Below, in pieces: positions 53,936 through 54,762 of a stretch of DNA of 64,000 bases. Source of the DNA: Thermobaculum terrenum ATCC BAA-798 (GTDB lineage: Bacteria; Chloroflexota; Chloroflexia; Thermobaculales; Thermobaculaceae); assembly GCF_000025005.1 (NCBI RefSeq), contig NC_013525.1, positions 1,700,501-1,764,500 of the forward strand, in the 5' to 3' direction. The position numbers and the translations under genes are program-made. The notes below the pieces were generated by a model. It was not told the DNA's origin. It searched no databases and saw only the letters and a program-made list of their open reading frames with translations. Within the stretch, counting starts at the first letter, position 1; every line of letters starts with the position of its first letter.

Positions 53936-54370
53936 TCACATCATCCCCAGATCTGCTAGGGTCTGGGCTATATCTGCAGCATTTTCTTCGCTCTGACGCT
54001 CCATCTCCTCCCATCGAGCTTTGTCCCATATCTCTATGTATGTATCCATGCCGGCAACCACCACCTCGGAAGTAAGGCCGGCAGCCTCACGAAGGTATTC
54101 AGGAATAAGTATTCTCCCCTGCTTATCAAGCTCAGTATCGCACGCCTGGGCAAACAGCACTCTTCGAATTATCCGCGCCTTCTGGTCAGTGACTGGGAAT
54201 CTATTGAGGGCCTCAGTTAGCTTCTTCCACTCTGACATGGGATAAACCGTCAGGCATGGCTCGAAACCTCTGGTGACAACAAAGCCTTCAGCCAGCCTAG
54301 CTCTGAACTTAGCCGGCATGGCCAGTCGACCCTTATCATCCAGCTTGTTGTCAAATCTTCCAAGAAACAC
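53936..54370 (-). CDS. mraZ: transcriptional regulator MraZ
   Basis: The 144-residue protein has two SpoVT-AbrB-like halves: KLDDKGRLAMPAKFRARL and ELDKQGRILIPEYLREAAG. MraZ forms a ring that binds tandem repeats before its own gene and controls the dcw cluster. Start is GTG at 54370 with GGAG 8 bases upstream. Five such repeats lie in its leader (54394-54445). Confidence 0.96.
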   Translation of the reverse strand: MFLGRFDNKLDDKGRLAMPAKFRARLAEGFVVTRGFEPCLTVYPMSEWKKLTEALNRFPVTDQKARIIRRVLFAQACDTELDKQGRILIPEYLREAAGLTSEVVVAGMDTYIEIWDKARWEEMERQSEENAADIAQTLADLGMM

Positions 54371-54383
54371 TTCTTAGCTCCAC

Positions 54384-54481
54384 TGGGTGGAAAGTTATCC
54401 ACATTTCCACCCACTTATCCCCACTTTCAACCACATTTATCCACAGGTCACCATTATGGGGACAAAAAGTACAAGTTACAA
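54384..54481 (-). promoter_or_regulatory. promoter and MraZ operator of the dcw cluster, with DnaA boxes
   Basis: On the minus strand TTGTAA (54476-54481) and CATAAT (54453-54458) are 17 bases apart. Right after lie five contiguous TGTGG/TGGGN units, each 10 bases but one of 12, from 54445 down to 54394. They match the MraZ-box rule of TGGGN every 10 bases. Two units contain perfect DnaA boxes TTATCCACA (54395-54403 and 54437-54445), a third has one mismatch (54415-54423). A 10-bp inverted repeat (54384-54393 with 54404-54413) surrounds one box. Confidence 0.75.
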
Positions 54482-54534: not shown

Positions 54535-54762
54535 ATGTTTCTTGTATGGTTCGATGATTCAAAAAGGGTTACTACTGAAGAGAAGATAAAAAATGCGATC
54601 GAAAGATATGTGGATAGAATGGGACAGCATCCTAATGTTTGTCTGGTAAACAAGGAGGATGCCAACGTCAAGGTAGAGGGCATATCGATTCATGCGGTGG
54701 ATTACGTGCGGCCCGGCTACTATTGGGTAGGGATAGAAGATGAGACTCAACAAGCAGCATAA
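54535..54762 (+). CDS. small conserved-looking hypothetical protein, divergent from mraZ
   Basis: This 75-residue acidic protein starts MFLVWFDDSKRVTTEEKI and ends near YVRPGYYWVGIED. AAAGGAGG lies 6 bases before the ATG and a TATAAT promoter is present, so expression is likely. No domain is recognised. A helix (about 15-30) is followed by strand-like segments. It shares its control region with mraZ and ends 3 bases from the converging biotin carboxylase gene. Confidence 0.7.
   Translation: MFLVWFDDSKRVTTEEKIKNAIERYVDRMGQHPNVCLVNKEDANVKVEGISIHAVDYVRPGYYWVGIEDETQQAA

Follow-up and report, generated by a model that had tools for sequence, protein, structure and literature searches.

A candidate composite MraZ–DnaA operator ahead of the dcw cluster of Thermobaculum terrenum

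The coordination of replication initiation with division-gene expression in bacteria is a long-standing question, and the tandem repeats upstream of mraZ in Thermobaculum terrenum raise it at a single locus: do they serve MraZ alone, or DnaA as well? The genome totals 3,101,581 bases on two contigs, of which the first has 2,026,947. The window, the 64-kb stretch of DNA analysed here, carries the dcw cluster on the minus strand with mraZ as its first gene, whose product is 76-77% identical to the MraZ proteins of four family members. Coordinates are given on the plus strand; mraZ, the dcw genes and the boxes run on the minus strand (Table 1).

Table 1. Features of the mraZ control region in the window
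Feature	Position	Strand	Remarks
mraZ	53936..54370	-	GTG start, 144 aa; matches solved MraZ structures at 7.5e-26
10-bp perfect inverted repeat round the terminal box	54384..54413	.	predicted leader-RNA hairpin
Terminal box, perfect TTATCCACA	54395..54403	+	~+43 to +51; 12 bp past last MraZ box, out of register
Internal MraZ boxes TGTGGTTGAA, AGTGGGGATA, AGTGGGTGGA	54411..54434	-	GTGG in 10-bp steps
First box, perfect TTATCCACA (TGTGGATAAA on the minus strand)	54437..54445	+	~+1; in 10-bp register with MraZ array
dcw/mraZ promoter TTGTAA-17-CATAAT	54453..54481	-	promoter scan

The region has the layout of an MraZ operator: GTGG-type boxes repeat every 10 bp immediately ahead of mraZ. Because the promoter scan places the -35 and -10 elements at 54481-54453, with a spacing alike in family members, the box array begins at about the transcription start. 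Read from the promoter on the minus strand, a weaker candidate, ATGG at 54451, comes first, followed by TGTGGATAAA, TGTGGTTGAA, AGTGGGGATA, AGTGGGTGGAAA and TGTGGATAAC, and the steps from TGTGGATAAA to TGTGGATAAC measure 10, 10, 10 and then 12 bp. An initial annotation had described five tandem 10-base units; the 10-bp steps hold for GTGG (CCAC on the plus strand) at 54441, 54431, 54421 and 54411, but the box nearest mraZ (54399) lies 12 bp away, and this 12-bp step is the informative detail. A divergent 75-aa ORF (54535-54762, plus strand) is kept near mraZ in relatives of families f1, f9, f12 and f13, and its possible -35 (TTACAA, 54476) falls on the -35 of the mraZ promoter.

The DnaA box consensus TTWTNCACA is matched in the operator by two perfect TTATCCACA copies, the first and terminal boxes, which lie 42 bp apart, or four helical turns at 10.5 bp. 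These copies, together with the near match TTATCCCCA (about 54416-54424, within the internal MraZ boxes), were located just after the dcw promoter, as the initial annotation had it, and the DnaA of T. terrenum carries the canonical box-reading motif GGRDHTTVLHG. The genome contains 27 perfect TTATCCACA matches, all on replicon 1 and none on the second replicon (contig 2), and two of them within 60 bp are expected in ~2% of random placements; the comparative sequence evidence for the boxes is far stronger than this chance estimate.

For this comparison, 127 of 158 Chloroflexia genomes yielded an mraZ gene, upstream DNA was read at ~90 loci, and 44 operators were picked by the position of mraZ, without conditioning on box sequence. 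Genomes without mraZ were considered as a test for an independent DnaA site; in the one checked (L112), rsmH comes straight after an accC-like gene, leaving no promoter region to compare. The last element, GTGGANAA(C/G), stands exactly 12 bp past the last in-phase box in 40 of the 44 operators, and a variable-gap pattern search that did not impose the register recovered the same 12-bp register in Chloroflexia. Families f1, f2, f7, f9, f12 and f13 have the array followed by this element at 12 bp; families f3, f6, f8, f10 and f11 have two to four boxes, and the terminal GTGGANAA element is absent. The proposal that the boxes could serve both DnaA and MraZ is partly supported: the outer boxes retain a DnaA-box profile across five to six families of Chloroflexia as well as in Patescibacteria, but the ninth DnaA position is often lost in f9 and f13, which retain GTGGATAA. 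The first box is not a perfect match in the closest relatives of T. terrenum (GTGGATAAAG, GTGGAAAAAG). Plain TGGG repeats without DnaA character, an outcome that would have refuted the proposal, are not what the relatives show.

A scan of 84,980 genomes with a pattern of three boxes plus the 12-bp step returned 63 stretches. Of these, 54 sit immediately ahead of mraZ, chiefly in Chloroflexota and Patescibacteria. Several of the remaining matches, from Bifidobacterium, Clostridiales and Bacillota, consist of DnaA-like boxes in tandem and are presumed to be origins. Among 63 distinct Patescibacteria tails, chosen on two internal boxes only, the element occurs at 11-14 bp in 35 (21 at 12 bp and 12 at 13 bp), and it stands upstream of mraZ at all 16 Patescibacteria loci fetched, four of which carry variants (three TTATACACA, one TTATGCACA). 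The A at DnaA position 9 is missing in about half of the Patescibacteria terminal elements. A correlation of the terminal box with R or E at residue 5 of MraZ, read by eye from the start residues, was dropped because some box-bearing Patescibacteria appear to have E.

Box profiles were compared with two references, on one side the 97 boxes of oriC-like clusters and on the other 132 MraZ boxes from inside the arrays. Every one of the 44 terminal and 41 first boxes in Chloroflexia scores as oriC-type rather than internal, a resemblance that is partly automatic since the GTGG core is common to both box types, and the oriC set was itself chosen at ≤1 mismatch from TTATCCACA. Boxes of the oriC-like clusters follow T-GTGGA-[T>C>A,G]-AA-[C>G], as do the terminal and first boxes, whereas internal boxes follow A/G-GTGG-GG; unlike DnaA boxes, internal boxes 2-4 of relatives have G at both positions after GTGG. 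The T preceding the first box often doubles as the final base of the -10 hexamer. Per-position constraint of the outer boxes matches that of the clade's oriC boxes except at a relaxed position 9, which is non-A in 12 of 43 terminal versus 3 of 97 oriC boxes (p = 4e-5), mainly in f9 and f13.

Paired boxes were searched for in 53 genomes of the terminal-box families, and a cluster was found in 21, with a geometry alike in many (0, 21, 41, then ~170 and ~231). The T. terrenum cluster sits near 323.4 kb of replicon 1 (~323396-323456; L228, G000:C1:320500-326500), within an intergenic region of 38% GC, with boxes of the TTATCCACA/TTTTCCACA type and an orthologous cluster geometry in relatives, and is the putative oriC of replicon 1. 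An oriC beside dnaA was rejected, as there is no box cluster there; dnaA is at position 58, ~323 kb away. The 42 bp from first to last box in the mraZ operator resembles the 21/41-bp box phasing at the putative oriC. Elsewhere on this replicon (G000:C1 ~431.5 kb; L042 1957-2104), an opposite-facing pair of perfect TTATCCACA boxes with near matches lies between convergent genes and is possibly a terminator or DnaA site. In addition, a TGTACGTACA-like palindrome occurs both near mraZ promoters of f7, f9 and f12 and, in one f9 genome (L197 3250-3680), within the oriC-like cluster.

In sister families, a site resembling GAACN4GTTC, the LexA motif of Bacillus subtilis (PMC3323433), follows the last box in f11 (6/6), most of f6 and part of f8 and f10 (L091-L095, L014, L016-L019, L096, L099, L107 and L108). 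Its offset after the mraZ box array is fixed or near-fixed, and it occupies the terminal-box slot in families without the terminal box, as would suit a site for a second regulator. The LexA-like box suggests SOS control of dcw in these families.

These observations are best explained by a composite operator, and on balance the dcw control region of T. terrenum is probably controlled by both MraZ and DnaA. In such an operator, three internal boxes and a first box shared with DnaA would make up the array, just past the promoter, through which MraZ regulates its own expression, and the two outer boxes would be DnaA boxes, of which one overlaps the array and the other adjoins it. The operon would be repressed when MraZ occupies the array. 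The comparison shows the layout of the operator, its conservation and the likeness of the outer boxes to oriC boxes; we infer that DnaA would bind at the outer boxes and either compete with MraZ and RNA polymerase or modulate them, whereby transcription of dcw may track free DnaA-ATP and hence replication initiation. In favour of this reading stands, besides the element at 12 bp in Chloroflexia operators fetched by mraZ position and in the Patescibacteria tails, the fact that the Patescibacteria variants show degeneracy tolerated by DnaA (TTATNCACA); the outer-box profiles, the oriC-like phasing, the LexA-like slot, the DnaA motif and the mioC precedent discussed below also count. Against it, the 12-bp spacing varies unusually little for a site that acts independently, and the loss of A at position 9, the shared GTGG core, the -10 overlap and the selection of the oriC set weigh on the same side.

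The strongest rival, which we consider possible if rather doubtful, is that MraZ owns all the boxes: end subunits of its ring would read a variant half-site GTGGANAAC, the last half-site would be displaced by 2 bp through ring or DNA geometry, and the likeness to DnaA boxes would be a by-product of the GTGG/CCAC core. The rigid spacing across phyla, the restriction of the terminal element to mraZ arrays and the looser position 9 than at oriC are all consistent with it, as is the identical GTGGAYAAC of the first box, which stands in the MraZ register. Mollicute MraZ reportedly accepts AAAGTG[T/G] (PMC8475190), so GTGT need not exclude MraZ; however, the GTGCATAAG variant suits neither TGGG nor AAAGTG[T/G]. 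The strong difference of the internal boxes after GTGG, with A/G before it, also argues against MraZ as sole owner, as do the Patescibacteria spacings of 12 and 13 bp, which are out of phase with a 10-bp array, and the LexA-like site that fills the slot in sister families.

A far less probable account is that AT-rich MraZ units drift to TTATCCACA by coincidence, without selection. In T. terrenum TTATCCACA is only mildly commoner than a reversed control (27 vs 16), and the imperfect first box of the closest relatives fits drift; however, the near-invariant GTGGA-AA and fixed spacing across many families and a second phylum, including GC-rich genomes, largely refute it. It is also very unlikely that a leader hairpin by the ribosome-binding site controls mraZ translation: the inverted repeat noted initially is perfect in T. 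terrenum (arms TGGGTGGAAA/TTTCCACCCA at 54384-54393 and 54404-54413), where folding predicts the hairpin (z -2.3), but pairing across the box in relatives does not exceed shuffled controls (3/42 nominally significant), which rules the repeat out as a conserved element and makes it probably species-specific, and the box-to-mraZ distance ranges from <40 to >100 nt among relatives.

Returning to the composite operator, it is quite possible, if short of probable, that an ancient MraZ-DnaA operator couples dcw to replication initiation in Chloroflexota and Patescibacteria, the adjoining slot being a modular checkpoint site for DnaA or LexA according to family. A conserved operator with sites for the dcw regulator and the replication initiator would make a direct link between the two processes testable, including in small-genome Patescibacteria. 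Since sister families appear to have a LexA-like site in its place, the checkpoint input at the mraZ operator may be exchangeable. A limited search of literature naming both MraZ and DnaA found no description of DnaA boxes in an mraZ operator.

Among known systems, the Escherichia coli mraZ operator likewise has GTGG boxes, three in number, that run in 10-bp steps immediately ahead of the gene, and Mollicutes carry AAAGTG[T/G] repeats, which are related MraZ boxes, upstream of mraZ/dcw. However, the E. coli operator is without the terminal GTGGATAAC, whereas in T. terrenum the two outer boxes obey the oriC-box rule, the last standing out of register at 12 bp. At the E. coli mioC promoter, MraZ has a binding site that overlaps the DnaA box (Eraso 2014, as described in PMC4446571). 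In the E. coli mioC sequence, one GTGG belongs both to an MraZ box and to part of the DnaA box TTTTCCACA, and the next MraZ box lies at a distance of 10 bp. This sharing of a single GTGG by both box types resembles the arrangement in T. terrenum, but mioC offers a single site beside oriC and not a dcw operator. DnaA-regulated promoters such as those of mioC, dnaA and nrdAB likewise have DnaA-type boxes in the promoter region; the candidate DnaA boxes of T. terrenum differ in being interleaved with the array of a second regulator.
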